Shown here one piece after another: positions 36,526-62,180 of a DNA stretch of 64,000 nt; the stretch's first letter is position 1, and every line of letters begins with the position of its first letter. The notes below the pieces were generated by a model, which made no database searches, had not been told where the DNA came from, and saw only the letters and a program-made list of their open reading frames with translations. Source of the stretch: a virus. A program made the position numbers and the translations under genes. The stretch is taken from positions 62,001-126,000 of the IMG/VR virus record IMGVR_UViG_3300020183_000012, one strand, 5' to 3'.

Positions 36526-37566
36526 ATGAACTGGTTGAAATTTGCAAGGGACGAGCGAGATAATTTTTCGGGAAAGAAACCCAGGGTGCTTTCGGGAAAG
36601 AAACCCAGGGTGCTTATGGTGTCTCTTCCGGACATGTGGGGCATTACGGACGAAGATCTGAAGCCTTTGCGTGAGATTGCCCAGGTGGATTGGGTTCAGA
36701 CGAAGCACATTACGGAGCGTGAGCTTGGTAAGCGTTGCGAGGGCTACGACTATCTGATGTTGAACATGGATCCGATGCCTTTTCCGGACCCGAACAAGTT
36801 GGACAAGCTTACGGAGGTATTTTATAAATTTCCGGGTGTTCGGGGTTTGAAGGGGATTAATGTTGACATGACTGACGCGGACTTCTTTAGTCCTGGTATT
36901 GCGAAGCGGCTTGGTATTGTGCTTCAGGATTCTCCTGACACTACGACAGAAAGTGTTGCTGAATCAGCACTTACGGAGATACTTTTGCATGCCAGGAACC
37001 GTCATCTTGCGTATGTTGACGTGGTGAAGGATCGTGACGTGGAGTGCAGGAAGTCTCTTGACCTGAAGGGCAAGGTTGCAGGGGTGATAGGTAAGGGACA
37101 CATAGGTTCACGCGTGGGTTCATTCCTTGAGGCTTTGGGGATGCGTGTTATGTACAACGATGTGGATCCGAAGCGTGGCGGCGGGGATTCTCTGGAGGAC
37201 ATATTCAGGGAGGCTTGCGTGGTGAGCATCCACGTACCGTGCCACCAGCCTCATACGAACAAGAGCAATGAGGGTCTTATAGGGGAGAAGCTTTTGGGTA
37301 TGTGTAAGGACCTGATACTGGTGAATCTTGCAACGGACATTATTGTTGACATTGGGGCGTTGAAGGATGCTCTGGACGGGGGCAGGATTCGCGGTTACTC
37401 TGTGGAGAGTGGCAGGCATGAGACCGAAAGTCTGCGTCGTTACGAGAACGTCCACATATCTCCGTGTTCATACGATTCAGATGAGTCGGTTGCGAACGTG
37501 AAGAGGGTGTGGATCCGCAACATGATCTCTGCGGTACGGGGTTCTCCCGAGAACGTTTGGATTTAA
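36526..37566 (+). CDS. D-2-hydroxyacid-dehydrogenase-fold protein, probably inactive
   Basis: 346 aa. Starts MNWLKFARDERD, one of the N-terminal tags described in the findings. A Rossmann motif GVIGKGHIGSRVGSFLEALG (about 186-205) with Asp at the end of strand 2 fits NAD binding, and VSIHVPCHQPHTNKS follows the family order. But the usual Arg of N-x-A-R-G is absent (VNLATDIIVD) and the catalytic His of the T-P-H motif is replaced (ISPCSYDSDES). It likely binds a cofactor or is a repurposed fold rather than a working dehydrogenase. Confidence 0.7.
   Translation: MNWLKFARDERDNFSGKKPRVLSGKKPRVLMVSLPDMWGITDEDLKPLREIAQVDWVQTKHITERELGKRCEGYDYLMLNMDPMPFPDPNKLDKLTEVFYKFPGVRGLKGINVDMTDADFFSPGIAKRLGIVLQDSPDTTTESVAESALTEILLHARNRHLAYVDVVKDRDVECRKSLDLKGKVAGVIGKGHIGSRVGSFLEALGMRVMYNDVDPKRGGGDSLEDIFREACVVSIHVPCHQPHTNKSNEGLIGEKLLGMCKDLILVNLATDIIVDIGALKDALDGGRIRGYSVESGRHETESLRRYENVHISPCSYDSDESVANVKRVWIRNMISAVRGSPENVWI
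36567..36614 (+). repeat. Perfect 24-bp tandem duplication
   Basis: TTCGGGAAAGAAACCCAGGG followed by TGCT is repeated exactly, encoding SGKKPRVL twice near the start of the dehydrogenase-like protein. Its exactness indicates a recent event. Confidence 0.9.
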
Positions 37567-37617
37567 TTTTCGGGCGTAGGGGATACCTTAGTGGGAGGTG
37601 GTATAGGTATAATATTA

Positions 37618-37659
37618 TGAACTGGTTGAAAGAGGAACTTTACGAAGCGGTGGGGTAAA
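37618..37659 (+). pseudogene. 13-codon stub copy of the dehydrogenase gene start
   Basis: The second repeat at 37579 carries ATGAACTGGTTGAAA with it, giving MNWLKEELYEAVG and a stop. It shows the repeat moved together with the tagged first codons. Confidence 0.6.
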
Positions 37660-37667
37660 ATGTAATC

Positions 37668-38606
37668 GTGAGAGACATCAATCGCAACATGGCGGCAAGA
37701 ACGGTGGGCAACTGGTGGAAGCGTGCGGGCATCGTAGACAATCCATCCAAGGAGTTGAGCGATGTATTTGATCCGGGCTCCACCCGCATGAGCGATTATG
37801 TCGTTGAGATGATCAACAGGGGTCTTGCACAGATACAGGAATATCTTGATTCCACCCATCCCGGGGTCAAGATCACGCATCATGAAGTCATTGGAGCAGC
37901 AGTAACTTACCAATACACCCCCAAGAGCGACATAGACACCACCGTTTTCATCAACATGCCTAAAACAGATCGGAGGTTTTGGGTCATCAACGATTGGATT
38001 ATAGAAAATCTTGACAAAACTATGTATTTTAAGGAGAGGCCAATCCAGTTCAAGATCGCACCAGATTCGTTAGTGGGGACCCAGAGTGCCAATGCTGATG
38101 CCATTTACGACCCCACCGAAAGGCGCTTTGTGAAGAAGCCCTCTCTGATAGGTGCCTCAGGTAGTTATCGCAAATTAGTTGAGTTAGGAAGTTCTGAGGA
38201 ACGCAAAGAGTACCGTCGCCTTGAGGAGGAGTTGCGAGGGATGGCAAGGTCCTGGGCAAAGGTGGGCAGACAGGCACTTGAATCAGGTAAGCCAAGCGAG
38301 TTAGGGAAGTGGCTTTGGCCCCAAGCTCGTGAGATAGCTTCAGCAATTAAGCGGATAAGAAGTTTGAGAGGCGAGGCCTACAGCCAGCCTGCAGCTCCTG
38401 GAAGAATAAGCCAAAACTGGGGTCGGGGTAACATACTATTCAAAATGATGGAGAGGGATGGATACATTGAGCTGTTTTCACTCATCAAAAAAACCTTGGG
38501 TGATCGGCAAGTTTTACACCCTGAAAATCTTGCAGCATCTGTAGAAATGGCTGAAAAAATAATGAATCAGCGTGTTGGTTTCGATCCAACCACCGATCCA
38601 GCATAG
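37668..38606 (+). CDS. Nucleotidyltransferase-fold protein, 312 aa
   Basis: GTG start at 37668. NWWKRAG at residues 15-21 is a variant of the tag. VIGAAVTYQYTPKSDIDTTV (Ser87-Asp88-x-Asp90) is the G-S/A...SDID metal-binding core of polymerase-beta-type nucleotidyltransferases. The rest is helical. Families of this fold include tRNA-modifying and toxin enzymes; the substrate is unknown. Confidence 0.7.
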   Translation: MRDINRNMAARTVGNWWKRAGIVDNPSKELSDVFDPGSTRMSDYVVEMINRGLAQIQEYLDSTHPGVKITHHEVIGAAVTYQYTPKSDIDTTVFINMPKTDRRFWVINDWIIENLDKTMYFKERPIQFKIAPDSLVGTQSANADAIYDPTERRFVKKPSLIGASGSYRKLVELGSSEERKEYRRLEEELRGMARSWAKVGRQALESGKPSELGKWLWPQAREIASAIKRIRSLRGEAYSQPAAPGRISQNWGRGNILFKMMERDGYIELFSLIKKTLGDRQVLHPENLAASVEMAEKIMNQRVGFDPTTDPA

Positions 38607-38764
38607 TCTTGACAGCAGGGTGTTTGGATTTAATTTTCGGGCGTAGGGGATACCTTAGTGGGAGGTTATGGCATTATTATTTTCGGGCGTGGGGGATACC
38701 TTAGTGGGAGTTTATGATATTATTATTTATGTAAAGTCGATAGAAGCCTAAAGGAGCACGCACT

Positions 38765-39535
38765 ATGGAAAGTTATAAAATAGAACATTTCAGCGTAAGC
38801 AAGACCAACGACCACGTTGAGAACGACCCTACCGACTACGGGAGGCTGTGGAAGGAGCTAAACCGCCAGCAAGCGGAGAACGAGCTTAAGCACGGCAGTC
38901 TTTTCAATGGTCAGTGGTACAAGCCATGGAGAATGGTGAGGATGATGAAGCTGTGCAAGCTTATGGGTGGCAAGGGGTGGTTTGGGGGCAAGAGGATTCT
39001 TGAGCTTGGTTGTGGTCACGGTCATGTGAGCAAGATGCTGAAGGACTGGGGAGCGAACCCATTGGCAACGGACGGCAGGGAGTGGTGCGTGGAGGCAACG
39101 AACTACTACTGGCCAGACCTTGAGGTAAAGCTTGTGGACCAGACGAAGGACTACGATCTTGGGAAGTTTGACCTTGTGATACACTGGGGTATATCGCACC
39201 ATCTTCCTCCTGATGCATGGGAGTACGATCTGATGTGTGCAGTGGGTCATGCCCCGGTAATGAGCTACGAGTGTGAGGTAGTGGACTCGAGTGATCCTAA
39301 GTGGGTGAAGATAAACTCGAATGACACGGGAGGCATGGACAAGAGCCTTACGGGTGTAGGTACGTTTTTGAGTGCTGCAGCCGTAGAGAGGTGCTTCGGT
39401 GATATAGGCTGTAGTTTCAAGCGATACGACGACAGGGATCTGGACTGCGGATCGTGTCACTATTCATGGAAAGAGATGGACTCTGGGGATTTCAATTACG
39501 GGCACATGCGTTTATGGATGGTCCATGGGACGTAA
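38765..39535 (+). CDS. Class I SAM-dependent methyltransferase
   Basis: 256 aa, AAAGGAGCACGCACT before the ATG. Motif I RILELGCGHGH near residue 80, Asp after strand 2 (ATDGREWCVEATN), and motif IV-like FDLVIHWGISHHLPP. The substrate is not evident; the HWGISHHL motif resembles small-molecule or sugar methyltransferases. A second-repeat copy precedes it (38692). Confidence 0.8.
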   Translation: MESYKIEHFSVSKTNDHVENDPTDYGRLWKELNRQQAENELKHGSLFNGQWYKPWRMVRMMKLCKLMGGKGWFGGKRILELGCGHGHVSKMLKDWGANPLATDGREWCVEATNYYWPDLEVKLVDQTKDYDLGKFDLVIHWGISHHLPPDAWEYDLMCAVGHAPVMSYECEVVDSSDPKWVKINSNDTGGMDKSLTGVGTFLSAAAVERCFGDIGCSFKRYDDRDLDCGSCHYSWKEMDSGDFNYGHMRLWMVHGT

Positions 39536-39863
39536 GGTGTTTTGGTAATAAAATTTTGGGGCAAGGAGAAGCCTGGTATATTTTCCCTGTTCTGCCCGTA
39601 GGGCAGTTGTGGCGGATCCGTTCCCTCTAGTGATGAAAAGCCCCTTATGGGGATACCTTAGCGGCTGAGTGGGCATCCGATGGAGTCCGATGGCACAAAC
39701 CCAATAGGTATTATTGAAGCCCGAAAAATATTTATACGGTAAGAGATACATCTCAGAAAGTGGTGTATTAGCGCATATGGGTAACATAGAGAATGGGTGT
39801 GGCGATAGAAGTTATAATAATCAAGGGGGGATCCACCGAAACGGGTGGCTGAAAAGGCAATGG
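39536..39863. other. Noncoding stretch
   Basis: About 330 nt with a shortened second repeat (39649) inside CCCC/GGGG pairing and a GGGGGGATCC stretch at 39826. No ORF I trust. Confidence 0.4.
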
Positions 39864-39968
39864 ATGGGAGACACAAATGATTTAATGACAAAGCAGCTTA
39901 TAAGTTATGGTATTGGAATAGGATTAATTATATCTGGATTCTTTGGATCTTTCAGACGAATCAAGTAA
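39864..39968 (+). CDS. Small membrane peptide, 34 aa
   Basis: ATG at 39864 (an internal ATG gives 27 aa). LISYGIGIGLIISGFFGSF is a single transmembrane segment with a basic end. Weak ribosome site. Confidence 0.4.
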   Translation: MGDTNDLMTKQLISYGIGIGLIISGFFGSFRRIK

Positions 39969-40107
39969 AATTTATGGTTTAACTTGCCCCAAAAATATAA
40001 ATTTATAAAATTCATGGGGGAGATCCCTAAAAGGGTCGGCTTAGGATATTGGGAATTAGCAATCAAAAAAAAGGTTATTATAATCTATAATATTAAATAT
40101 TAGTATC

Positions 40108-40557
40108 ATGAATTGGTATAAGAGCGCAGGAAAATGGACAAAAGGAGACGGAGACTGCTTTAAAGCGGCATTAAATCTTCTTTTAGTGAGGAATTTTCCT
40201 AAAGACAACGGAGATTTGCTGGTTCACGCATTGGTGCACGGTCGCGGAAGTGCATACGGGCATCGATTTCCTCATGCTTGGGTTGAGACAAAAGAGGGCA
40301 TTGCAATGGACCACTCCAGTGGTAAGAGTATAGATATACCAAAAGAAATATATTACGCCCTTGGAAACATAAATCCAGACGAAAAGGGAAGCTACATGTC
40401 GTACACGCTTGCAGACGTAAGAAAGAAAATTACCGAGCACAAGCACTACGGACCATGGGATCTAGATACAGAACTGCAGAGAACTCCAGAAGACTGGAAT
40501 GAACCAGAGGAAGAGACGGATGATGATGAAGACTGGGATGACGATGAGGATGAATAA
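40108..40557 (+). CDS. Tagged papain-like-fold protein, 149 aa
   Basis: Starts MNWYKSAGKW (tag). GDGDCFKAALNLL offers a candidate Cys17; HRFPHAWVETKEGIAMDHSS gives a His and Asp, the order seen in small cysteine-protease-like phage proteins. The last 20 residues are acidic. Its stop overlaps the next start (TAATGA). Confidence 0.6.
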   Translation: MNWYKSAGKWTKGDGDCFKAALNLLLVRNFPKDNGDLLVHALVHGRGSAYGHRFPHAWVETKEGIAMDHSSGKSIDIPKEIYYALGNINPDEKGSYMSYTLADVRKKITEHKHYGPWDLDTELQRTPEDWNEPEEETDDDEDWDDDEDE

Positions 40558-41108
40558 TGAATTGGTATAAAAATGCATCTAATTACAGCGAAATGAAAGA
40601 TTTTATGGAAGAATTTCAGTGGTACAGGGACCGTGGTGTCGCATCCGGACTCACGGACAAAGAAATAGAAAAAATATGGACAGAATCTCCAGTGGGATAC
40701 ACCGATCCAGTTGATCTAGACAGAATAGGGAATACATATACTCCAGAAGTTACAGGAGAATCCGAAGAGGAAAGAATTAATAAATTTATAGAATGGGCAA
40801 AGAAAGAGAATAGAGAAGACAGTGCGGAGAGCGAATGGGGAGAGAAAAGACTAAGAGATCCAGAAGGATATCTTCGCAATCTTTTAGTGGGTATAGGCAG
40901 AGGTGACTATCCTGCAGTAAACATCGTTGAAGCTGAGGGTCTGGGAAGCTTTATTGTTGGAGGTAGAACTCGCGCTGCGGCTGCCCGCGCACTAGACATG
41001 CCTCTGAGGACCAGAAAAATAAAAATGCCCTGGAAGGAAAATGAGAGCACCAGAGAGGTAAAGGATTTATTTTATAAATTTGATGAACAGGAAAGTAAGG
41101 ACGCTTAA
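40557..41108 (+). CDS. Tagged ParB/sulfiredoxin-like protein, 183 aa
   Basis: Starts MNWYKNASNY (tag). The C-terminal half has SFIVGGRTRAAAARALDMPL, the G-G-R-x-R-x-x-A-A motif of the ParB/Srx nuclease fold. N-terminal half is acidic and helical. One-nucleotide overlap with the previous gene. Confidence 0.6.
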   Translation: MNWYKNASNYSEMKDFMEEFQWYRDRGVASGLTDKEIEKIWTESPVGYTDPVDLDRIGNTYTPEVTGESEEERINKFIEWAKKENREDSAESEWGEKRLRDPEGYLRNLLVGIGRGDYPAVNIVEAEGLGSFIVGGRTRAAAARALDMPLRTRKIKMPWKENESTREVKDLFYKFDEQESKDA

Positions 41109-41121
41109 GGGCAGAATCTCA

Positions 41122-41835
41122 TTAATTCTTTCGGAGTACCCAATAGGTCTGTTCAAAAACTTTTCCCCATCCTCTGAGGAGTGAGAATACTCCCAGTGGT
41201 ATCTTGGTTCTCTCGACAAACTCATTGACGCCTATCTCCACTCCCTGCCAGCTGTTGTAGTCGTCTCCGAATATAACGCCTCCTGGAGAGAGTAGATCCC
41301 AATAGAGATTCAGGTCACGGGTAAAGTCTTCGTAATCGTGACTTGCGTCTAGATAGATCATATTCGGATGTACTTTGAATGTCTTTAGGATGGTGGCTCC
41401 TGTCACTGATGTCTGTGGAAGTGGAATGACTCTTTCGGAATATCCCTTATGTACGCAGTTGCTCAGGAATTGCTGATAGATGGTGGGGTATCCGTGCACC
41501 AATTTCATATCCCTCTCCCTTAGCCATATTTTTGCATCATGTTCATTAAGAGATCTAGGAGGAAGATTCGTCCTCATCTCTTGGGATCCTAGCCAGGTGT
41601 CTACGCATATGATGTCTGTATCTAGTCCTTCCTTGGTTGCAGCATCGAGCATTGTGAAGCAGGATTGTCCTTTCCAGGTTCCCACTTCTAGTATAAAGGG
41701 GGGTTTGTATTCCCTCACTAGATCTCCGAATATTCTTGCTGTACCGTTCCATCCGCTGTAATCAGGCTCCATCAATTGAAGTCCAGACCAGATGTCTCCT
41801 CTAAGTAGCTTTTCTTTTGTTTCTATATTAAGCAT
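41122..41835 (-). CDS. Class I methyltransferase (Methyltransf_24-like)
   Basis: 237 aa from the ATG at 41835; a GTG 42 nt upstream is an alternative. FILEVGTWKGQSCFTMLDAA is motif I, MIYLDASHDYEDFTRDLNLY and GGVIFGDDYNSWQGVEIGVN are the later motifs typical of the family, often near sugar-modifying genes. Its first 41 bp recur at 43271-43311 as a separate fragment. Convergent with the ParB-like gene. Confidence 0.8.
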   Translation of the reverse strand: MLNIETKEKLLRGDIWSGLQLMEPDYSGWNGTARIFGDLVREYKPPFILEVGTWKGQSCFTMLDAATKEGLDTDIICVDTWLGSQEMRTNLPPRSLNEHDAKIWLRERDMKLVHGYPTIYQQFLSNCVHKGYSERVIPLPQTSVTGATILKTFKVHPNMIYLDASHDYEDFTRDLNLYWDLLSPGGVIFGDDYNSWQGVEIGVNEFVERTKIPLGVFSLLRGWGKVFEQTYWVLRKN

Positions 41836-41867
41836 AACTTGTATATCGACACATGACTGAATAACAA

Positions 41868-41993
41868 ATGAAGGCACGAAACAAAAAGATCAATCCCTAT
41901 GGTGGTAGATGCGTGCACGGATACGTGAAAGACTGGAGAAAAGGAATAAAATTAGAATTTCTTAAAAAGGGGGATACCTTAGCGGGAGTGTAA
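41868..41993 (+). CDS. Possible small basic protein, 41 aa
   Basis: MKARNKKINPYGGRCVHGYV... ends KKGDTLAGV with its last codons made by the second repeat (41969). No ribosome site; weak support. Confidence 0.3.
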   Translation: MKARNKKINPYGGRCVHGYVKDWRKGIKLEFLKKGDTLAGV

Positions 41994-42029
41994 GAATATT
42001 ATATTAATATTACATTTTAAGGAGACCAC

Positions 42030-43109
42030 ATGGCAGTACTGCGCTACTACAAACCCAACATCCACGATGTGTACCGCTACCCAACACAAGCCACACCAAC
42101 AAGCGGGGGTATCGCACCCAATGGTTACAACTCAGAGTGTCAGTCATATGACCACATTGACTGGTCGGGCACCAGCGCCCTCCATCGAAACTTCTGCAAC
42201 AACATTCCAAACAATAGTTTCAACAATATTTTCTTCACGATTCCATATGATCGAAACAGCGTGAACTTTTGGAATCAATGCACCTATGGCGCGGTGCTGA
42301 TCTCGCCACGGCATGCGCTTATCTGCCAACACTTCCGTGGTGCTAGACCCGACCCGAATGACAACACAGGTGGTATTCGGTTCCTAGGAAAGAGCGGTGC
42401 TTTCTATGAAAACAAGGTCACTCGCGTCTATCTCAACATCGGCCCTGATACGACTATGCTTGAGTTTGATAAGGAACTTCCCGATTCCGATGTCAAAATC
42501 TATAACAGGATCGCTGATCCGCTTTACATTCCCACAGGCACTTCGCTGTGGACGAAGGATAGCAACGGCAAAATCTACAAGACACTCTTTAAGAGCGCAT
42601 ACTTGGATACAACTACCAACGATACGAGAGGGTACAACTTCAACGCATGCTTGGATGGCATCAACGATGGGGCGTTCAGGAACGGAGCACTCGCTATCTT
42701 TGCTGGCGACTCGGGTTCACCTGTGATGGTGCGAGACGCATACGGAGACACAGTCTTTGTTGGATTGGAGTACGGTGGTCAATCGGTCAGCAAGGCTACC
42801 TTCGCAAACCTTGTTGCAGCACTCACTCCCTTTGGATATAAGGTGCAGCATGTCAAGTTGTCTGCCAAGATGGAAGACATCAATCAGGACGGTGTGGTTG
42901 ATCAGGAAGACCTAAATCGAATCCTCGCCAGATGGGGTCAAACGAAACCTGTCTTTGAGGACATGGATGGAGACGGCAAGGTGGACGGGATCGACCTGTC
43001 ACGGGTACTAGCGGCATGGGGGTCGTACACCATGCCAACATTCCCGCAAGCCGTGGTCAACCCAGGAACGGTCATTACGAATCCCCCAACTGGCAAGCCA
43101 CGGGCATAA
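42030..43109 (+). CDS. Trypsin-like protease with C-terminal dockerin-type repeats
   Basis: 359 aa. YGAVLISPRHALICQHF carries the His (101), TTMLEFDKE a candidate Asp (147), and FAGDSGSPVMV the Ser (228) in the GDSGSP motif, so the trypsin triad looks complete. Residues about 283-333 hold two calcium-binding dockerin loops, DINQDGVVDQEDLNRILARWG and a second ending VLAAWG. VLAAWG-type dockerins are frequent in planctomycetes, which hints at the host. Its GC is higher than its neighbours, suggesting transfer. TTAAGGAGACCAC precedes the ATG. It may be a virion-associated or secreted protein; no signal peptide is evident. Confidence 0.8.
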   Translation: MAVLRYYKPNIHDVYRYPTQATPTSGGIAPNGYNSECQSYDHIDWSGTSALHRNFCNNIPNNSFNNIFFTIPYDRNSVNFWNQCTYGAVLISPRHALICQHFRGARPDPNDNTGGIRFLGKSGAFYENKVTRVYLNIGPDTTMLEFDKELPDSDVKIYNRIADPLYIPTGTSLWTKDSNGKIYKTLFKSAYLDTTTNDTRGYNFNACLDGINDGAFRNGALAIFAGDSGSPVMVRDAYGDTVFVGLEYGGQSVSKATFANLVAALTPFGYKVQHVKLSAKMEDINQDGVVDQEDLNRILARWGQTKPVFEDMDGDGKVDGIDLSRVLAAWGSYTMPTFPQAVVNPGTVITNPPTGKPRA

Positions 43110-43145
43110 ATTGCTTACCTAATTATTAGTAAACAAGAGGGCACT

Positions 43146-43265: not shown

Positions 43266-43270
43266 GCGGT

Positions 43271-43311: not shown

Positions 43312-43401
43312 TAGAGGATAAAGCATCGATTAAATAATATAGCATAAAACATAGGATCTAATATGATTATGTTCTAATATAGAATAGAAAAAGGAGATTT
43401 C

Positions 43402-43566: not shown

Positions 43567-43592
43567 TCATATAATTTGTATCATGGTACTTT

Positions 43593-47049: not shown

Positions 47050-47274
47050 ATGCATTGGTACAAAAAATGTTCCCAAAAAGAAGATAAAAAGACCGTTTCT
47101 GATCTTGCAAAAGATCTAATGAAAAGGTTGTTAGCATATGGAATGACCCCTGAAGAAATAGAAAGAGCAATAAAATCTGGATACCTTGAAAGAATTATTG
47201 GTAAAAAACCACCATTATCAAATACATCTGATTCAGGATGGGATGATCCATCATTTTGGAAAGACAACAATTAA
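47050..47274 (+). CDS. Tagged hypothetical protein, 74 aa
   Basis: Starts MHWYKKCSQKED (tag), followed by a helix and Gly/Ser/Asp-rich end. Not recognised. Confidence 0.55.
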   Translation: MHWYKKCSQKEDKKTVSDLAKDLMKRLLAYGMTPEEIERAIKSGYLERIIGKKPPLSNTSDSGWDDPSFWKDNN

Positions 47275-47275: not shown

Positions 47276-47947
47276 ATGAACTGGAAAAAAAGAGCGCAAT
47301 TTTCTGGACCAGCAATTGGTGACATTGATGACATTTTGGGAAACATACATCAGACTAAAATGTATGAAGAAGATGCCAAACAAGGTACAATTAGGGGACG
47401 TAGGCCTTCCGAAGATTCTGTACCAACAGTGCAAACAGAGCCTGAATATTTATTGACCCAAAAAAGAGAGAAAGATCTTGAGAATAAAGAAACAAAAATA
47501 TCAAGATATTATTCTCCTCACATTTCAGAACAAGTTAATCATTCTGTAAATAGCGCTATTGATTCGATATTAAAACTAAGCAAAGCATTTAAACTCGGCA
47601 AGGCCATTAATGAATTAATGGAAAATAAAAATATTATAGATAAAATAACTTTGCATTCCTACAAGATGTTAAGAGCAAAGCTTGTTTCAGGTGTTCTTAG
47701 CAATATTAATAAAAAGAATGAATGGGCAGATAGAGAAACAGCTATAATATCTAATATAAGAGTAAAAGAATTATTATCTGTTTACGAGAATGAAGAAAAA
47801 AATATACTAGGAGTTTTTAAAGAAGTAGTAGAAGAAATTTCTTTTAAGACAAAAAAAATTGCTGAATATTCAGCGATATTTGAAATGATAGTAAAAGAAT
47901 TTTTAAACAGTTTGAAATATAATAGTTTAGATTATTCTGAAAGTTAA
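47276..47947 (+). CDS. Tagged hypothetical protein, 223 aa
   Basis: ATG 1 nt after the previous stop. Starts MNWKKRAQFSG (tag variant), then a disordered region and a long helical domain (NHSVNSAIDSILKLSKAFKL). Not recognised. Confidence 0.5.
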   Translation: MNWKKRAQFSGPAIGDIDDILGNIHQTKMYEEDAKQGTIRGRRPSEDSVPTVQTEPEYLLTQKREKDLENKETKISRYYSPHISEQVNHSVNSAIDSILKLSKAFKLGKAINELMENKNIIDKITLHSYKMLRAKLVSGVLSNINKKNEWADRETAIISNIRVKELLSVYENEEKNILGVFKEVVEEISFKTKKIAEYSAIFEMIVKEFLNSLKYNSLDYSES

Positions 47948-51041: not shown

Positions 51042-52637
51042 ATGAAAAATTGGTATAAACACATTAAAATATCTGAAACAAATACTGAAGAAGACAAACA
51101 CATAACTCTTACTTCAAATGAAGAAAATATTTTTAACATAATAAGATCTGCACGTAGCAAATACGCGAGTGATGTATCTCTTAGGGTTGCTGGAGGATGG
51201 GTTAGGGACAGGTTGCTAGGCAATATGTCTGATGACATAGATATAGCAGTTAGCGGAGGAAATGGCATAGTAATAGCAGAAGCAGTAAGAAAATTTGATC
51301 TTGATATGACTGGCGGAAAAAGAACAGATGATCCTTATTCTGTAAGTCTAGAAAAATCAAATAAAGGCTTAAAGGAAAAAAGTGCAGGCTTGCAGGTTGG
51401 TGGTATCAATATACTCGGTATGAAAATTGAATTTGTTCCAATGAGAACAGAAGTGTATTCTGAAGAAAGTAGAATTCCCTTAATAAGAGCAACTGACAGC
51501 CCATCTGAAGACGCAAAAAGAAGAGATCTTACAATAAATTCTCTATACTACAATCTAGATACAAGAGAAGTAGAAGATTACACTGGGGGATTTGATGATC
51601 TTAAAAGCAAGGTACTGAAAACACCAATAAGCCCACTAGAGACATTAATAGAAGATCCGCTGAGAGCGCTTAGGGCGATAAGATTTGTATCTAAAATGCC
51701 TGGTTTTAAACTTGATGATTCTTTGCTTTCTGCTCTATCAATGAAAGAATTACACGATGCATACAGAAAAAAAGTTTCACCAGAAAGAGCAAAAGTAGAG
51801 ATAGAAAAAATAATAAAGGGAGAAAGACCGTCAGATTCTATTAGATTGCTTTTGCAAAGCGGACTTTATTTACCCGTTTTTTCAAGTGAAAGACTTGACT
51901 CATTTAAGCCAATAACCATGGATCAAAACACCAAGCACCATAAATTAAACTTACTTAACCACACAATTTTAGTTGTTGAAAATCTTGATAGGATCATGAG
52001 AGAAAATGGATTCTCTGATAGAGAAAGATATCTTGCAGTACTTGCTGCTCTTTTTCATGATTTTGGCAAAATGGATCCTTCAATAGAAAAACCAAGTAAA
52101 AAAGACCCATCTCAATCAAGCTATCATGGACATGAAAATGTTTCAGCAGAGATTGCCGAAGAAATACTTAAAAGACTTGGTTTTGGCGCGGACAGAAATA
52201 TAGTAAAGTCAATAGTAGAGAGCCACATGATACCGCACTCTTTTATTGATTTGAGCAACAAGTCAATCGGAAATTTTATTAGAAGATTTGAAAGTTTGCC
52301 TATTGATGATGAAATAAAAGAGTCTCTTTGGAAACTTGTGTTTGTCCATTCAATTGCAGATACTATGGGCAAGGGAAAAATAGATGAAAAAGAACTTGAA
52401 GAAATAGAGCAAAAGAAAAAATCTATAAGTAAAATAGAAGAGTTCTTAAAAGAAAGAGAAAAAGTGGGCAAAAAACCTATTTTAAATGGCAATCAAATAA
52501 TGAAATTGTTTCCAATGAAAGATCCTAAAAGTCGATACATAGCAGATATGCAAAAAACACTTTTAGAAGCACAGGACAATGGATCTGTAACTAACGAAGA
52601 GCAAGCAAAAGAATATTTACTTGAATTGTTTAATTAA
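51042..52637 (+). CDS. cca: CCA-adding tRNA nucleotidyltransferase with HD domain
   Basis: 531 aa. Starts MKNWYKHIKI (tag). The nucleotidyltransferase core is intact: VAGGWVRDRLLG (49-60), SDDIDIAV with catalytic Asp65/Asp67, RRDLTINSLYYN (160-171), and EDPLRALRAIRF (204-215). A C-terminal HD domain has LAALFHDFGK (HD at 339-340). It should restore or add 3' CCA. None of the seven tRNAs in this window encodes CCA, so the enzyme and tRNAs make sense together. Confidence 0.9.
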   Translation: MKNWYKHIKISETNTEEDKHITLTSNEENIFNIIRSARSKYASDVSLRVAGGWVRDRLLGNMSDDIDIAVSGGNGIVIAEAVRKFDLDMTGGKRTDDPYSVSLEKSNKGLKEKSAGLQVGGINILGMKIEFVPMRTEVYSEESRIPLIRATDSPSEDAKRRDLTINSLYYNLDTREVEDYTGGFDDLKSKVLKTPISPLETLIEDPLRALRAIRFVSKMPGFKLDDSLLSALSMKELHDAYRKKVSPERAKVEIEKIIKGERPSDSIRLLLQSGLYLPVFSSERLDSFKPITMDQNTKHHKLNLLNHTILVVENLDRIMRENGFSDRERYLAVLAALFHDFGKMDPSIEKPSKKDPSQSSYHGHENVSAEIAEEILKRLGFGADRNIVKSIVESHMIPHSFIDLSNKSIGNFIRRFESLPIDDEIKESLWKLVFVHSIADTMGKGKIDEKELEEIEQKKKSISKIEEFLKEREKVGKKPILNGNQIMKLFPMKDPKSRYIADMQKTLLEAQDNGSVTNEEQAKEYLLELFN

Positions 52638-53455: not shown

Positions 53456-53974
53456 ATGAAAAATTGGTTTTTGAAGTCAGCAGAATCTGGAGATGAAAAA
53501 TTAAAGTCTTTTGTTGAAAGCGTAGAGTTTAAGACAACAAAAAAGAAGCCACTTAATTATGTTTTTTATCAAATAATTAATGGAGACGTAAGTAAAATGC
53601 CAGCTTTGAGCTATGGAGTAAACGACAAAGATCAGAATCTTATAGTTACTCAATTTCCGGACGAAGGTGAGGAAGAAACACAAAATATGGCAAAGAATGG
53701 AGATATAATCGTATCCGGGCCTGCGCATGAAAAATATGTAGTAAAACAAGAAAAATTTAAAAAGAACTATTCTGGAGAGATTGGTGAAAGCGTTTCTCCT
53801 GAGCAGTCTACCAGGATGGCTGCAAAGTATACAGGACAAGAAGAAATAATGTTTACTGCTTCATGGGGAGAAAAAATGAGGCTTAAACCTGGAGACTACA
53901 TAATAAAAGAAGATGAAAACAAATACTATAGAGTTAGACGTAAAATGTTTGAGTTGACATACGAGCCAGTGTAA
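53456..53974 (+). CDS. Tagged hypothetical protein, 172 aa
   Basis: Starts MKNWFLKSAESG (tag). The C-terminal segment FTASWGEKMRLKPGDYIIKE then YYRVRRKMFELTYEP resembles a small beta domain found in other phage proteins. Function unknown. Confidence 0.55.
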   Translation: MKNWFLKSAESGDEKLKSFVESVEFKTTKKKPLNYVFYQIINGDVSKMPALSYGVNDKDQNLIVTQFPDEGEEETQNMAKNGDIIVSGPAHEKYVVKQEKFKKNYSGEIGESVSPEQSTRMAAKYTGQEEIMFTASWGEKMRLKPGDYIIKEDENKYYRVRRKMFELTYEPV

Positions 53975-55205: not shown

Positions 55206-55922
55206 ATGAAGTACTTGGTATACACTGTATCTGATTTTACTGATTACGCAGAAGAGTGCATAGCATATCTTTATGAAAGCATAATAAACAATAATGATGC
55301 GTCGATTTTTGATTTTTGTATAGTTTCAAATAATAAAAATTTAAAGTCTAATTTTGATATAATATTTGATGATAATAATAGTAGCTATATAGGGTGGTCA
55401 AAGTACACAAAAAAATTACCAAACGGATATGATGGCTATCTATATTTAGATAGTGATATATTATTTAATGAAAAAATTAAAAACATGTTTGGGCAATATG
55501 ATAATTCAGTTGTATGTGAAAGTCAACAGATGGCATCTCCATGGTTTATGTTTAGTTTATCAAGCGAAGAAGAAAAAAAAGAAATGTCAAAAATAAATGG
55601 ATTTAATGCTGGGACTTTTGCTTTCAAAAAAAAAGATGTTTTGATAGAGATAAGTAACATATGTGATAGAATAAAAAATAAAAATTTTAATACGATACAG
55701 CAGGCCTGTACTGAGCAAACATGTTTTAACTATTGGATTTTTAATTGTTTAAAGAAAAAAATACTTTTTAACAACTTGACAAGAATGGTTCAATTGCATG
55801 TTACTGAAAAGCAAGAAAATAAAAGCGTTTTTCATTTTTGCGGATTTACGGGTAATATGAAAGACAAATATGAAAGAATGAAAAAATTTATAGAAAGGTA
55901 TGAAAAAAATGGATCGAGATAA
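55206..55922 (+). CDS. Putative GT-A glycosyltransferase, 238 aa
   Basis: DGYLYLDSDILFNEKI carries a D-x-D (LDSD) motif in the GT8-like context; NGFNAGTFAFKKKD is a typical later segment. Overlaps the methyltransferase gene by 23 nt. Confidence 0.6.
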   Translation: MKYLVYTVSDFTDYAEECIAYLYESIINNNDASIFDFCIVSNNKNLKSNFDIIFDDNNSSYIGWSKYTKKLPNGYDGYLYLDSDILFNEKIKNMFGQYDNSVVCESQQMASPWFMFSLSSEEEKKEMSKINGFNAGTFAFKKKDVLIEISNICDRIKNKNFNTIQQACTEQTCFNYWIFNCLKKKILFNNLTRMVQLHVTEKQENKSVFHFCGFTGNMKDKYERMKKFIERYEKNGSR

Positions 55923-56436
55923 AATGATATCGCTTTTACCTAAAAATCTAGTTTGGGTTGAACTTGGAGTTTTTGAGGGGGAATTTTCTAAAAAAATATT
56001 CGAACTAACACAGCCAAAAGAACTTCATCTTGTTGACATATTTCCAAAATCTATGGTGTCTGGAGATAAAGACGGGAAAAACAGAAAAACGCTAGACTTA
56101 AGAAATATTCCAAGTGAACTTAAAGATTATTTTAGGGGCAAAAATGTTCATATACACAAATGCACAACAACGGAATTTTTAGAAAAAGCAATAGAAACTT
56201 CTATGCATATAGATGCAGTGTATATAGACGCTGATCATTCTTATGGAGCTGTTGCTTCTGATTTAAAAAGAAGCTTTCAGGCCTTAAAAAAAGGTGGATA
56301 CATATGTGGGCACGACTATAATCCTCAAAGATTTCCAGGAGTAGTAAAAGCAGTTAATGAATTTTGTGCAAAAAGAAATCTAAAGATAGAGACAAAGACA
56401 GAAGATCTGCTACCTTCTTATCTTATAAAGTTATAA
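55900..56436 (+). CDS. Class I methyltransferase (Methyltransf_24-like)
   Basis: 178 aa. WVELGVFEGEFSKKIFE is motif I, DAVYIDADHSYGAVASDLKR and GGYICGHDYNPQRFPGVVKA the later motifs. Close in type to the methyltransferase at 41122. Coupled to the glycosyltransferase before it, suggesting sugar methylation. Confidence 0.8.
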   Translation: MKKMDRDKMISLLPKNLVWVELGVFEGEFSKKIFELTQPKELHLVDIFPKSMVSGDKDGKNRKTLDLRNIPSELKDYFRGKNVHIHKCTTTEFLEKAIETSMHIDAVYIDADHSYGAVASDLKRSFQALKKGGYICGHDYNPQRFPGVVKAVNEFCAKRNLKIETKTEDLLPSYLIKL

Positions 56437-56439
56437 AAA

Positions 56440-57120
56440 TTAACTTGAAATGTTTTTTCTTGTCTTTTGATTTATATAAGAATAAACCTCTAATATATCG
56501 TCATGGGCTGTAGTTATGTGCTCAAGCTCCCAGCCTTCTATTTTATCAGAATTTGATATTTTTTCTTTCATTTCTTCAAGCATTGGTATCATTTGATGTA
56601 TTTTTTCCATCATCATACCTTGGTTCTGATTAAAGCAATCATCACATGATGAAGAAGCTTTTTTTGTTGCAGGATTAGACTTAATTATATTTATAGTGTC
56701 GGTATAGTTTTTATCGTATCTCTGTTTTATAAATGCATTTAAATTATTAACTTGTTGAGGAGAGGCGATTCCAGATATTGCATTATTAAAAATTTCTATC
56801 ATTTGACCGTTTATAAACTCAAGTTGCCCTCCAATGTTGTTTGGCAAATTGTTCATTGGAAGCGCTTCAAATATACCTTTATTAGCTTTTCCTAATGAGG
56901 TGATCATTGCAGCAATATCTTTAGCCCCAGCAATTCCAGAAGATGCAATCATATTTTTAAGTTGACTGGAATAGGCATTTAGTGTTTGCGAAACTTGCTG
57001 ATTATTTGATTGATTTGCACCTTGTGCATTTTGGGTATTTTGTTCGTACTGTGGTGCTGCGCCAGGAATTACTGCACCGAATCCTTGATTTTGCTGCGAT
57101 GACTTAAACCAATTATGCAT
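56440..57120 (-). CDS. Tagged Gln/Asn-rich protein, 226 aa
   Basis: Starts MHNWFKSSQQNQ (tag), then a Gln/Asn-rich low-complexity region and a helical domain with SSCDDCFNQNQG. Not recognised. Confidence 0.5.
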   Translation of the reverse strand: MHNWFKSSQQNQGFGAVIPGAAPQYEQNTQNAQGANQSNNQQVSQTLNAYSSQLKNMIASSGIAGAKDIAAMITSLGKANKGIFEALPMNNLPNNIGGQLEFINGQMIEIFNNAISGIASPQQVNNLNAFIKQRYDKNYTDTINIIKSNPATKKASSSCDDCFNQNQGMMMEKIHQMIPMLEEMKEKISNSDKIEGWELEHITTAHDDILEVYSYINQKTRKNISS

Positions 57121-57161
57121 AATATATATGTATTATGTATAATATTTAAAAAACCTTTAAG

Positions 57162-57494
57162 CTATTCTTCTGGGTTTATTCTAAAATAAATGTCTTTTAT
57201 TTTAGAATTAAGATATTCATTTTGAAAATCTGCATCAATAGCATCTTCTATTGCAGAAAAAAGATCATCTAGTAAAGATGATGAATTTTTACTAAAATCA
57301 AATGTTTCGTTGACAAAATTTTCCATTTGATCTGAATTTTGTATATTATTTGGATTTATATAAAATGGATAAATGTAGCTATTGGGACCGTTGAGACCAT
57401 CTGGTATTTGCCAAATTTGATCCCAATTTATGCCTTCTATTTTTTCTAAATTATGGCTATTCTCTTCTTTGTTTTCTTCGTTTTTGTCTTTCAT
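57162..57494 (-). CDS. Hypothetical acidic protein, 110 aa
   Basis: Acidic, Asn-rich, no recognised family. It lies 41 nt past the stop-proximal neighbour on the same strand. Confidence 0.5.
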   Translation of the reverse strand: MKDKNEENKEENSHNLEKIEGINWDQIWQIPDGLNGPNSYIYPFYINPNNIQNSDQMENFVNETFDFSKNSSSLLDDLFSAIEDAIDADFQNEYLNSKIKDIYFRINPEE

Positions 57495-57558
57495 ATATCT
57501 TATTTCGTCATAGGATAATATTTTTTTTAAGAGAATATACTCATATTAGGAGATTTAA

Positions 57559-58974
57559 ATGACACCAGAGTTATATGTACCAATTTCTTGTTTGCTAGAC
57601 AAAAAAATATCCGATGAGATAAACACTAAACTTGAGATTGTATATAAATTTGCACAAGACAACATGATATCTTTTAGTGAAGTTCCAGAATATATATCTG
57701 AAATTTTAAAAAATAAAAAATATGCATCAGCTGGAATAAAATCAAGTCTTTCTAAATTACCTGATTTTATTTTCAAATTAGCTGATTTAAAAAACGATTC
57801 TTATTTCATAAAAACAGCTCAAGAAAAAGAACAAGAAGCTTCTAATGAATCTGATGGATCTGATTCCTGGACTAGAAGCTGGTGGGCAAGCGTTCTTGGT
57901 TTTATACCAGGAGTTGGCGGAGTAATAAGTTTAGTAAATATATATAAGTATAGTTATAAGGCATGCAAAAATGAAGGAGCTTTAAGTTGGAGCTGTGTAG
58001 AATTTGTCTTTGATATACTTGTTATATTACTTGATGCAGTGACAATAGCTGGAATTATGGGATCCGTTGGGACTGCCGGAGCATCAGGTGTTGGTGCAGC
58101 TGCAGCAATAGCAGCAGGAACAGTTATAAAGGCCATGAGACCAGTATTAAAAGTTATTATGCTTGGTGAAAAAATAACTAGGCCAATAAGGTTAGCGCTA
58201 ACTCAGTTTGGAAAAGGATTTATTGCAATTTTAGAAGCAGTAGGAATAAAATCTTCAAAAGTTATTGCGTGGTTTGCTGCAAAAAAATCTACTCCAGGAG
58301 TTTTAGGTAGAATATTTACAAAGCTAGAAAATATGTTTATATCATTTAAGGCAATAACAGTAAACATAATAAATAAATTGAAAAATGCAATAAAGGCAGA
58401 GAAAGATCTTTTAGATCCTTTTGCTTCTGCAACAGCAACAGGTCGGGGAAGGACGGCACGAAGGGCTGCCTATGCTGCAATAGTAAGCAGGGGCCAGTTG
58501 GGTTCAAGACAAATACTTCAGTGGTGTTCTTTCTTTAGACAAGGAAGTGGATGGATGTATACGTTTAATTTAAATGCATTAAGGTCTTTTGGAATATTAG
58601 GAAAAGCCGCAGAGTCACTTACAAATTGGTTTATGTCAGAAGGCGCTACCGACATAGAAAAAAGCGTTTCAGAAATGGAAAGCGAAGTTATGCAAAATCC
58701 TAATGCAATTGTTAGTGGTCAGCAAATGAAAGCAAGAATTAAATTAATAGTTGAAGAAAACTCTGAAAAACTAGTAGCAAGACTAAGAACTGAAGGCAAA
58801 AGCGAAGCAGAAATAGCCAAGATTAAGGAGGGATATGCAAGGTATATGGCCGAAATGCTTGAGGGTATCGCTGTTTCTGGAAGCGAGACTTCCGATGAAT
58901 ATACAGTACAAATGCCAGGTTATGGAAAAGATGCAACATTTGATAAAATGTCGATTCCAATCGGTCCTGGCTAA
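57559..58974 (+). CDS. Large hydrophobic protein, 471 aa
   Basis: TTAGGAGATTTAA precedes the ATG. Acidic N-terminal 100 residues, then Trp-rich SWTRSWWASVLGFIPGVGG and several hydrophobic helices (VFDILVILLDAVTIAGIMGS; GVGAAAAIAAGTVIKAM), then a basic and helical C-terminus. The IPGVGG-hydrophobic pattern appears in pore-forming or pre-toxin domains; it could be a membrane-penetrating virion protein. No family assigned. Confidence 0.5.
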   Translation: MTPELYVPISCLLDKKISDEINTKLEIVYKFAQDNMISFSEVPEYISEILKNKKYASAGIKSSLSKLPDFIFKLADLKNDSYFIKTAQEKEQEASNESDGSDSWTRSWWASVLGFIPGVGGVISLVNIYKYSYKACKNEGALSWSCVEFVFDILVILLDAVTIAGIMGSVGTAGASGVGAAAAIAAGTVIKAMRPVLKVIMLGEKITRPIRLALTQFGKGFIAILEAVGIKSSKVIAWFAAKKSTPGVLGRIFTKLENMFISFKAITVNIINKLKNAIKAEKDLLDPFASATATGRGRTARRAAYAAIVSRGQLGSRQILQWCSFFRQGSGWMYTFNLNALRSFGILGKAAESLTNWFMSEGATDIEKSVSEMESEVMQNPNAIVSGQQMKARIKLIVEENSEKLVARLRTEGKSEAEIAKIKEGYARYMAEMLEGIAVSGSETSDEYTVQMPGYGKDATFDKMSIPIGPG

Positions 58975-59193
58975 TTAATTTGATTTTTCGCAGCCAAGTT
59001 GAGGATATTCAGTATAATCAGGAGGGACATCAAAATTTTCTTTTGATAATATCTCCATTCCTGGTTTTTGATTGTCTATAAAATCTTGAATTCTTTCCCA
59101 TGCCCTGTATTGATTGTTGAAATTTCTCCAACAACCAGGGTTTCCGTATATTTTGTCAATTAAAATTTGTTGTAAATTTGGAAATTTAGACAT
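58975..59193 (-). CDS. Hypothetical protein, 72 aa
   Basis: Trp/Asn/Pro-rich small protein; 5 nt after the SNF2 helicase stop, so translationally coupled. Not recognised. Confidence 0.5.
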   Translation of the reverse strand: MSKFPNLQQILIDKIYGNPGCWRNFNNQYRAWERIQDFIDNQKPGMEILSKENFDVPPDYTEYPQLGCEKSN

Positions 59194-59198
59194 TTTTA

Positions 59199-62180
59199 TT
59201 ACCTTGATATTTTATACCAGTTTGTGTTTGTATTTAAGCTTGCTTTTTTCATTTCTTTGCCTATTTGCTCTACTTTCTGTTCCAGTTTTTCATCTATTTC
59301 TTCAAGTTTTGCCTGAAGTTCATTTTTTCTTTTGTCATTTTCAGTAACCTCAAATCGACCTTCAGATATTCTTTCTATTTGTTCTTCATCTAGCCTTTGT
59401 ATCAACTCCATTATCATAATTTTTTGCTTGACTATTTCATAAATATCTTCATCAGCTGTGCCTTTTGCTATCATATAATAAACGTTTACGTCTTCTTTAC
59501 TATTAATTCTAAAAAATCTTCCTCTGGCCTGCTCGTCTTTTGCTGGACTCCAATCATAATCATTAAATATTACATCGGTTAGTATGTTTGGAAGATCTAT
59601 TCCAGTTCCACCAGCTGCTATATTTATGACAATTGCAAAATATTTACTATTTTCTGACTTAAAATCTTGAATTATAATGTCTCTATCTGCTTTTTCTTGG
59701 TTGCCTCTAATCTGAGCGACATTTTTGTTCATGGGTGCTAGCAACTTTGTTAGACCATCAGTAATAATATCAGCAGATTCGTTAAACGACGTAAATATTG
59801 CAACCTTTTTGCCTTGATTTATGAAAAATTTTGCAAATTCGAGTGTTTTTGGTGCTTTTGCGGAAGCAAGTTCGACTCTAATTGCACTTTGTTCATTAAG
59901 GGTACTCCTTCCTCGGTACGAACTCATGCGGGCGTTTATCTTAGCCATAAGCGTAGCCTTATCTAGATCAACATTTTTTTCTCCAACTGCAATATTTGGA
60001 AGATTTTCTTCCATCATTTTTTTAGTTCTTTGAATATATATTCTTTGAAGTATCAAAATTTGCCTTAATTTGTCTGCGTTGGCAAATTTTTCAGATGGAT
60101 TTTTTGTTTTTGGATCAAAATTGCCTTTAAAGCGACCGTGATCGAGTTTTCCAAGAGGATGATTTACAGCTCTAAGCTGATTATAGAGATCTACTGGCTT
60201 ATTCGCTATAATTGTTGCAGACAAACCCCATACGTATGGTATGTGCTGCGTAATATCTTGACAATTAAAGGTTGTTTTGTTCTTTTTGTGGTCTCCAGCT
60301 GGGTCTCTTGAGGACGGAGAGCCATTTTTTATGGTGTGACATTCATCAAGGATACAAAGAGCTATCTTGCCATCCATTGCTTGTTTTTTTAGAAATTCGG
60401 TAACTTCTTTTGACCTACTGGAAACAGAAAGATCGTTATATGGAAGAACTTTCCACATGGCTGACTCATTATTAAAAGAGTTGGAAACTTGATTTTCAGG
60501 TAGCCCTGTAATGTCTATTACATTTTTTGTGTATTGACTAACTACAGAGGGAAGAGTAAATACAAGACACTTTTTTCTAAATGAAGAACATACATTCGGA
60601 TCGGTTAAATTTGCGTCAAATGGTATGTTGTTCTCTCTCATGAGTCTTAATTGTGCGGCCATAATAGATTGAACAGTCTTGCCTGTTCCTGTTTCGTCGC
60701 CAAGAAGAGCGGAAGACCTGGAGTAAAGGAACTGGATACCGTGAACCTGCAGATCTTTAAGGGTAAACTGTTCTCCAGTTTTTATTTTGCTTATGTTTGA
60801 TTCAAATTTTTCAAGTGCTGATCTAAATTGTTCCTTATTGTCAAAGCCATCTACGCTTCCCTCAAGTCTCTCTTGCTTTATTATGCCTTTTGAAACCAGA
60901 GAGGATACAATCCTCTTGAGTTCAGACGCATCAAACCCTCTACTCTCACAACATTGTATGAATCTTGCATAATCATTAAGGGAACCCCTGGTTGGTCTTT
61001 GGTATTTAAATCTTGTATCAGAGCTTTCACTCATATTGAGATACGTATGTATATCTGGATCAGTGTTGTTTATGTCACTAGTTGAATTCACAAAACAAAA
61101 TCTAAGAGATTCATTGATAAATTTTCTTAATTCTTCTGGTTGAGATCTACTTAGATAGAAAATGCTTATAAGCCAGTTGTTATTTGTATCTGCAGATATG
61201 TCTTTGCAGGTTATTGACGTTCTTGAGTTTCCGTCTTCAAATATGGTACTTGCAGAAGATGCTTGATCAAAAGGATTGCGATCAAAACCAATTTTATCTG
61301 ATTGATCTCCAAGCTGTTTTAATGTTTCTTTTGACGGAGAATACAAAATCCAGCATCTTTTGGCAGCATCAAAAGTTCTTCTGGATTTTACATTTCGTAT
61401 AACATTAACCATTTCTGAACTATACTCAAAGTAAATTTCATAATTATTGCCATCTCTTATTATTTTTACTTTTTTCTTGTCTGTATTCTTACTTTCAAAT
61501 ACACCTTCTCTTGTATCAGCTGCATCACTTGTTGTTTTTTGTGTTGAGACTGCAATATTTGCGTTTTCTGTATTGTAGTCAAGCGATTTTAGATAATTGA
61601 AGACTATGCCCTCAACAAGTGGATGTATTTCTATTATGTCTGGTTGGCTTCTTGGATAAAAAAGCTTCCAAACTTGAATTTTGTCACCTGAAAAGTAGGA
61701 AGAAAAATCTTGTCTTTGCTCAGGAGGCAAAGACATAATTTTTTCTGATATTTCTTTTATGATTTTTCTAATTTTGACTGGGTCTAGAGACGGAATTATG
61801 TATGTACTTCTTCCATATCCTCCAGTACCAATTTTTTTAATAGATTTTGTTTTAGAAAGTTCGTTTATATCTTTAAATTCTGGATTTGTTTCAGAAAACT
61901 GGTCATTAATTCTACTTTCTATTTGATCTAAATTTTCATTTTTTAGTTGAGTATTTTTATATCTTTTTAATATGTATAGTATGCCATATATTTCATCCCA
62001 AGTCAATGGATCACTTATTTGCATTCTATATACAGACCTAAGAAGCGGATTATCATAATCAAATTTATTAAATCCTGAATTGTCATATGTTGTTGGAGCT
62101 CCTTTTCCAAACATATTTTTTACAATTTCTATTATTTTAGAAACTTCTGCACTACTGTGTTTTGATTTATTGATAGACAT
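59199..62180 (-). CDS. SNF2-family helicase with C-terminal tag
   Basis: 993 aa. Helicase motifs: Q-type region LKDLQVHGIQFLYSRSS, Walker A GDETGTGKT (494-502), DECH box in LCILDECHTIKNG, SAT in GLSATIIANKP, and the second RecA-like domain (VAIFTSFNESADIITDGL; INIAAGGTGIDLPN; QARGRFFRINSKEDVNVYYM). Residues about 230-290 look like a HARP-type annealing domain (FEYSSEMVNVIRNVKSRRTF). The very last residues read NTNWYKISR: the tag at the C-terminus. Likely remodels DNA during replication or repair. Confidence 0.85.
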   Translation of the reverse strand: MSINKSKHSSAEVSKIIEIVKNMFGKGAPTTYDNSGFNKFDYDNPLLRSVYRMQISDPLTWDEIYGILYILKRYKNTQLKNENLDQIESRINDQFSETNPEFKDINELSKTKSIKKIGTGGYGRSTYIIPSLDPVKIRKIIKEISEKIMSLPPEQRQDFSSYFSGDKIQVWKLFYPRSQPDIIEIHPLVEGIVFNYLKSLDYNTENANIAVSTQKTTSDAADTREGVFESKNTDKKKVKIIRDGNNYEIYFEYSSEMVNVIRNVKSRRTFDAAKRCWILYSPSKETLKQLGDQSDKIGFDRNPFDQASSASTIFEDGNSRTSITCKDISADTNNNWLISIFYLSRSQPEELRKFINESLRFCFVNSTSDINNTDPDIHTYLNMSESSDTRFKYQRPTRGSLNDYARFIQCCESRGFDASELKRIVSSLVSKGIIKQERLEGSVDGFDNKEQFRSALEKFESNISKIKTGEQFTLKDLQVHGIQFLYSRSSALLGDETGTGKTVQSIMAAQLRLMRENNIPFDANLTDPNVCSSFRKKCLVFTLPSVVSQYTKNVIDITGLPENQVSNSFNNESAMWKVLPYNDLSVSSRSKEVTEFLKKQAMDGKIALCILDECHTIKNGSPSSRDPAGDHKKNKTTFNCQDITQHIPYVWGLSATIIANKPVDLYNQLRAVNHPLGKLDHGRFKGNFDPKTKNPSEKFANADKLRQILILQRIYIQRTKKMMEENLPNIAVGEKNVDLDKATLMAKINARMSSYRGRSTLNEQSAIRVELASAKAPKTLEFAKFFINQGKKVAIFTSFNESADIITDGLTKLLAPMNKNVAQIRGNQEKADRDIIIQDFKSENSKYFAIVINIAAGGTGIDLPNILTDVIFNDYDWSPAKDEQARGRFFRINSKEDVNVYYMIAKGTADEDIYEIVKQKIMIMELIQRLDEEQIERISEGRFEVTENDKRKNELQAKLEEIDEKLEQKVEQIGKEMKKASLNTNTNWYKISR

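Follow-up and report, generated by a model that had tools for sequence, protein, structure and literature searches.

A portable terminal N-W-Y-K peptide in huge phages related to Bacillus phage G: a candidate capsid-targeting signal

Why should about ten unrelated proteins of one virus begin or end with the same few residues? The question is raised by a stretch of 64,000 nucleotides, hereafter the window, which covers positions 62,001 to 126,000 of the IMG/VR virus record IMGVR_UViG_3300020183_000012 (G000:C1:62001-126000; the record has 146,719 bp). A first-pass annotation of the window had listed ten occurrences of a short N-W-[Y/F/L]-K motif at protein termini, and all ten are present in the sequence at or adjoining the places given there. 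We consider it likely that this tag is a capsid-targeting propeptide that would be cut by the head protease and would load the virion with effector and repair proteins for ejection. Little is known about what giant phages carry in their heads in addition to DNA. Should the tag prove to be a packaging signal, one could read from sequence, metagenomes included, which proteins an entire phage lineage injects; each phage would then supply dozens of candidate host-takeover or anti-defence proteins, mostly of unknown function, and the tag would offer a portable means of loading foreign proteins into the heads of very large phages.

Distribution, shape, and virus lineage of the tag

A search for the tag in related genomes, which the first-pass annotation had proposed, recovered it in many IMG/VR virus contigs. 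The strict DNA pattern MNW[YF]Kx[AS]Q occurs in 45 IMG/VR stretches, nearly always at true starts of open reading frames (ORFs), and several contigs carry three to five copies. A near-identical pattern (only Y in position 3) gave nine matches in 257 Gb of bacterial and archaeal genomes; eight of these lie in very short frames that are not true gene starts, and the ninth is on a phage-like contig in a Patescibacteria bin. With a shorter pattern, about 110 matches were obtained in the tag-bearing records and none with the reversed control. In the record that contains the window (G000), 13 proteins have NWxK within their first 21 residues, compared to 0.38 expected (1e-15). Across 16 contigs with 2,187 proteins (419,483 residues), called by a gene caller blind to the tag, NW[YF]K occurs 99 times N-terminally (first 20 residues), nine times C-terminally (last 25 residues), and eight times internally, while 23 permuted motifs reach 0–7 N-terminal occurrences each; the contigs of the relatives, unlike G000, were picked by the tag, which biases their counts upward, and the internal, C-terminal, and permuted counts were drawn from the same contigs. 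The motif is thus not equally common at the ends of random proteins, an outcome that would have spoken against a targeting function. De novo search of the 16 contigs likewise returned NW[YF]K as their strongest N-terminal motif.

Among 120 tags, W is present in all, N in 108, Y in 99 (F in 14), and K in 112; position 6 is A in 56 and S in 29, and position 7 is Q in 50. The tag directly follows the initial Met in 97 of the 120, and the offset between the two ranges from 1 to 15 residues. Its codons vary synonymously (AAT 43/AAC 29, TAT 65/TAC 7, AAA 57/AAG 15), which argues for selection on the peptide and not on the DNA. Where A or S is missing from position 6, a shifted (hydrophobic)-K-x-[AS] of the IK[LVI]A type follows a few residues downstream in 17 of 35 cases. 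Tags at both termini of one protein also occur (G010 120-1943; G031 4925-6685). A short N-terminal peptide of ten residues or fewer that is common to unrelated proteins, one mark of T4-type targeting, is what these genomes contain.

The better tag-bearing contigs have matches in PHROGs to a terminase, a portal (phrog_16240), a major head protein (phrog_2522, E=1e-64), and a protein of about 2,000 residues that opens with a head maturation protease. The capsid protein of the tagged relatives is 55% identical over 277 residues to gp27 of Bacillus phage G, and their protease domain is 42–48% identical to phage G gp19. Judged by these alignments, the tag belongs to a lineage of very large tailed phages that is related, by capsid protein, to phage G. 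Most tagged genes are variable genes, and the NW tag is missing from every core gene that was identified, namely terminase, portal, capsid protein, and protease. A search of the tag-bearing contigs with PF07068 (T4 gp23-type capsid) gave no match but was uninformative, as control genomes gave none either.

Cargo, head-module sites, and the swapped tag of phage G

Tagged bodies include ART-PolyVal (E=8e-15) and other ADP-ribosyltransferase (ART)-like proteins, GNAT acetyltransferases, AAA_33 kinases, cREC, G6PD, PcfJ, CCA enzymes, SNF2, and ParB-like proteins. This set overlaps strongly with the "polyvalent" domains, for which injection by phages has been proposed (PMC5512222), as well as with T4 Alt (PMC9026906). 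The cargo is of the kinds that phages are known or predicted to package, namely proteins of the ADP-ribosyltransferase, ParB, and GNAT types, nucleotidyltransferases, and helicases.

The latter half of the tag, (hydrophobic)-K-x-A-[QS], also occurs inside proteins, and there more often than in shuffled sequences (128 vs. 55; for [ILV]KxAQ 45 vs. 12). These internal sites concentrate in families of the head module: the protease polyprotein has 27 compared to 2.6 expected, cluster 13 has 10 compared to 0.4, and cluster 16 has four compared to 0.4. There are none in the families of TerL, the major capsid protein, ribonucleotide reductase, and dUTPase, the last two of which were named from sequence and not by profile match. 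Within the head-module families the sites are positionally conserved. In the polyprotein, one is found at alignment column 47 in six of eight homologs and another at column 1985; cluster 13 has KPFNLKKAQ and KPFNWKEA[QS] at alignment columns 147 and 488, and cluster 16 has [IV]KTA[SQA] at column 32. The polyprotein site IKTAS sits just ahead of the protease domain. In six intein-free metagenomic protease homologs, K5 and A7 of an N-terminal M..[YDM]KxA are invariant, as is A38 of [IV]K[TLIF]A[SA], which is kept in phage G gp19 too. As far as sequence can tell, the arrangement matches that of a self-processing head protease that has a propeptide. The protease itself was recognized by phrog_18299 (E=1.4e-11), and its H103 and S154 are invariant; a PDB profile search returned spurious coiled-coil matches only. 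Intein-like insertions occur in this protease at a conserved SMG/C position in G015 (L069:4753-5652, minus strand) and G023 (L141:8083-8982, plus strand). A further site lies in a 1017-aa protein of G000 and G016, in which SWYKTIKLAQ marks the exact point of fusion between two proteins; G005 encodes these two separately, and the first ends there in NWYK.

Phage G, which is in culture (NC_023719), has a tag of its own. De novo search yielded the N-terminal motif M-[KST]-R-L-x-K-[K]-[AS] on about 25–30 of its proteins (e.g., L158:35181-36314 and L158:28218-28733). N-terminal RLxK is present in 30 proteins compared to 2.3 expected, with 0–20 in permuted controls, the highest of which are overlapping KRL/RLK forms. 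Six of seven ART-like proteins carry this tag (p=5e-8), as do a ParB_N protein (E=3e-9), a nucleoside deoxyribosyltransferase-like protein, and a SLOG protein, and four or five tagged genes, including gp9, gp10, gp17, and gp20, lie amid the portal, protease, and capsid genes. Since homologous ParB-like and ART bodies bear NWYK in one lineage and MKRL in phage G, where the tag sits, which cargo bears it, and probably what it does are conserved, while its letters change. The swapped tag of a cultured phage makes the idea directly testable. MKRLIKK[AS] was also seen in repeated copies on the metagenomic contigs 3300042923_001771 and 3300039191_000589. A C-terminal motif of phage G, WKENDRYL, was considered as a second portable tag and rejected in favor of paralogy, because all of its approximately 30 bodies fall in one connected family; these are small zinc-ribbon and ~200-aa proteins ending in WKENDRYLxKIL, encoded at 26-33 kb and 354-370 kb.

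What the tag may do

According to the mechanism that we favor, cargo made late in infection would bear M(x0-9)-N-W-[Y/F]-K-x-[A/S]-[Q/S] at its N-terminus, sometimes at its C-terminus or at both ends, and this peptide would dock it in the core of the assembling prohead. The head maturation protease would then cut the tag at (hydrophobic)-K-x-[A/S], the same type of site as in the protease polyprotein and the core proteins, and the cut cargo, set free in the head, would exit together with the DNA and enter the next cell. The sequences themselves show the portability, position, and enrichment of the tag, its restriction to one virus lineage, the sharing of its motif with the head module, the cargo classes, and the swapped tags of phage G. 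The comparison to the capsid-targeting peptides of T4 internal proteins, offered at first pass, finds independent support in the sites shared with head proteins, the kinds of cargo, the phage G tag, and the C-terminal and double tags.

Docking, cleavage, virion presence, and ejection are steps that we infer, and several observations weigh against this mechanism. (Hydrophobic)-K-x-[AS] is not clearly present in 18 of the 120 tags; G6PD, the dehydrogenase, and the CCA enzyme are tagged although they are not obvious ejection proteins. The head maturation protease has no Pfam or PDB match and is identified by PHROGs only, and the predicted structure of its N-terminal region (predicted local distance difference test, pLDDT, 47) was unusable for a fold search. 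G000, a contig fragment, has no capsid, portal, or protease gene; its link to the lineage is by way of other shared core gene families and tag-bearing relatives only. For phage G, the head module is only weakly enriched in such internal sites, gp19 excepted, and the cleavage half of the proposal is accordingly less certain than the targeting half.

Alternatively, the tag could be a docking motif for the prohead core or the portal that is never cleaved, with the internal sites in head proteins being interaction motifs. The conservation of W and N beyond the needs of a protease site would fit such a role, and FNWKEAQ and FNLKKAQ in a core protein resemble docking elements. However, cleavage predicts sites such as those seen just ahead of the protease domain and where two genes are fused, and Ala/Ser at P1 followed by Ser/Gln at P1' would be plausible for a head protease; sites of SPN3US gp245 favor Ser at P1' (PMC10052503). 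We regard a tag without cleavage as improbable. Somewhat less probable still is import into an intracellular phage compartment, be it a nucleus-like shell or an early vesicle, instead of packaging. A portable terminal peptide would suit an import signal, and the cargo includes enzymes that handle DNA or RNA (SNF2, CCA enzyme, ParB-like), but the K-x-A-[QS] half recurs in head-assembly proteins and the head protease, while terminase, ribonucleotide reductase, and other genes of core metabolism lack it. Moreover, the study that defined the nucleus-forming family used phage G for outside comparison and did not count it as a member, and no support for a compartment was found, no search for compartment genes having been made.

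Two further explanations would dispense with targeting altogether. If the tagged proteins were one divergent paralogous family, their common start would be due to ancestry, and some tandem paralogs in G018 (NWYKQIKLALPV...GH) do look related; distinct Pfam folds, and homologous bodies with a different tag or none, contradict this and leave it very little credence. Least credible of all is a DNA or mRNA element, such as a leader cassette or translation enhancer, that encodes NWYK by happenstance. The window does contain one duplication of an 83-nt leader plus tag (Table 1), but the synonymous codons, the Met offsets of 1–15 residues, the C-terminal copies, and the Y/F/L/I substitutions all speak against it.

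Encapsulin cargo-loading peptides, too, are short terminal peptides that direct cargo into an HK97-fold shell; they serve a bacterial compartment, are usually C-terminal, and are not known to be cleaved. The precedent for a capsid-targeting propeptide is T4, where IPI, IPII, IPIII, and Alt bear N-terminal peptides of 7–10 residues on unrelated cargo that includes an ADP-ribosyltransferase and varies between related phages, and where the peptide overlaps the site of the gp21 head protease (PMC9026906). Ten residues suffice for IPIII targeting, and Alt, which loses seven, is one of the T4 proteins processed at both ends (PMC9026906). The two systems share no sequence similarity, however; the T4 protease cuts after Glu whereas the proposed P1 is A/S here, the capsid and protease families differ, the cargo per genome is far larger here, and for NWYK proteins packaging and cleavage are predicted from sequence. 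A second precedent is the Dar system of P1, where an N-terminal signal loads the anti-restriction protein DarB into the head, but this signal, within the first 30 residues, has been shown on one protein and is no genome-wide repeated tag (PMC9024508). Polyvalent proteins overlap in domains (ART-PolyVal, GNAT, Pol-beta NTase, ParB-like), but join them in one long protein (Iyer et al., 2017; PMC5512222), whereas most of them are separate proteins here, all bearing one and the same tag. SPN3US and phiKZ are large phages in which N-terminal propeptides of several head proteins are cut at a short motif; this motif is cut after Glu, and no short uniform tag is known there (PMC10052503).

A literature search found MNWYK in this sense in none of the papers covered; its two matches were irrelevant. 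Capsid-targeting sequences are a known kind; as far as checked, new here are the sequences, the lineage, the number of cargo proteins per genome, the exchange of tags between lineages, and the site shared with the head protease. We tentatively extend the proposal one step, to something we consider possible rather than probable: phage-G-like huge phages might run a general address-label system, in which each lineage has its own N-terminal label (NWYKxAQ, MKRLxKK[AS]) that co-evolves with the head protease and places dozens of effectors in each virion, and in which one lineage or more would use a further, non-overlapping label at the C-terminus (..[NS]RFEILD[LI]) to send another set of proteins elsewhere.

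Tags and other features of the window

Table 1. Tag sites and related repeats in the window (window coordinates).
Feature	Position	Strand	Context
Leader (83 nt) + ribosome site + ATGAACTGGTTGAAA (MNWLK)	36458..36540	+	Direct repeat, copy 1
Tag MNWLKFA	36526..36546	+	N-terminus of 346-aa 2-hydroxyacid-dehydrogenase-like protein (36526-37566), PF02826 E=1.3e-20
Leader + tag repeat, 86% identical	37549..37631	+	Copy 2; aborted tag ORF MNWLKEELYEAVG-stop, upstream of 37668 gene
Tag NWWKRAG	37710..37730	+	N-terminus of ~305-aa protein; likely start ATG 37689
Tag MNWYKSAG	40108..40131	+	N-terminus of 149-aa protein (40108-40557)
Tag MNWYKNAS	40557..40580	+	N-terminus of 183-aa ParB-like protein (40557-41108)
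Tag-like MHWYKKC	47050..47070	+	N-terminus of small 74-aa ORF; weakest case
Tag MNWKKRAQ	47276..47299	+	N-terminus of 223-aa protein (47276-47947)
Tag MKNWYKHIKISE, extended form with shifted IKIS	51042..51077	+	N-terminus of CCA/poly(A)-polymerase-HD protein (51042-52637)
Tag MKNWFLKSA	53456..53482	+	N-terminus of PGDYG-domain protein (53456-53974)
Tag MHNWFKSS	57097..57120	-	N-terminus of 226-aa protein (56440-57120)
Internal site IKTAQ (in FIKTAQEKEQ)	57808..57822	+	471-aa protein (57559-58974); (hydrophobic)-K-x-A-Q without NW
Tag NWYKISR	59202..59222	-	C-terminus of 993-aa SNF2-family helicase (59199-62180)

The claim that the bodies behind these tags are unrelated is borne out by Pfam matches to a 2-hydroxyacid dehydrogenase, a CCA/poly(A) polymerase plus HD domain, PGDYG, and an SNF2/helicase. 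The ParB-like assignment is backed through a tagged relative in phage G, and the protein could be aligned with tagged homologs in G005, G031, and G003 as well; its predicted structure (pLDDT 53) was unusable for a fold search. For the bodies at 37668 and 40108, described initially as a nucleotidyltransferase and as protease-like, no Pfam match was obtained. NWWKRAG, placed initially at residue 15 of the 37668 protein, is more likely at residue 8, with the start at ATG 37689 (MAARTVGNWWKRAG). The C-terminal tag of the helicase was correctly described, as the protein ends in ...NTNTNWYKISR-stop. MNWKKRAQ has K in the third position and retains the K-x-A-Q end. Homologs carry variant tags: MNWLKWA on the dehydrogenase-like protein in G005, and MNWYRKVSQ on the CCA enzyme in G015. 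The leader duplication, which includes the ribosome-binding site, suggests that tags can spread together with their leader.

The tags had been reported to lie only to the right of 36.5 kb. This holds within the window, where no N-terminal tag is found in 1-36 kb, but about nine more exist elsewhere in G000, beyond this left block, at G000 37-56 kb and 127.7 kb (MNWYKTAS, MNWFKISQ, MFFNWYKTAQ, MVHNWLKRA, TNWIKRAN, MKSNWYKKSG, MKINWYKTSQ, MTWYKSAQ, and MNWYKNQL). The left block itself (window 1-36000) is tRNA-bearing and tag-free, with about 50% G+C in a contig of ~32%. A chimeric assembly is an unlikely cause: G003 carries homologs of several block genes and tags in one contig, which argues that the block belongs to the lineage.

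Another terminal motif was observed in the relative G002 (IMGVR_UViG_3300033145_003233, 548 kb), where 64 proteins from about 45 unrelated families carry a C-terminal [NSD]R[FSA][ED][IL][LM]D[LI] (RFEILDL; e.g., L110-L111, L201, L207, L209, L211, and L213). RFEI[LM]D[LI] is never internal or N-terminal, the RFEILDL and NWYK protein sets do not overlap, and the motif is also present in a 351-kb and a 298-kb contig. An N-terminal enrichment of KINGECY in G004 was rejected as a tag and attributed to Ser-rich paralogs. Arrays of long Ser-rich (SSSSS) proteins are found in G000 (10570-14090) and in G004 (11787-25516 and 78407-88307), and at least 14 of the G004 paralogs start with a conserved (F/L)xDYQGxSIKINGxCY.

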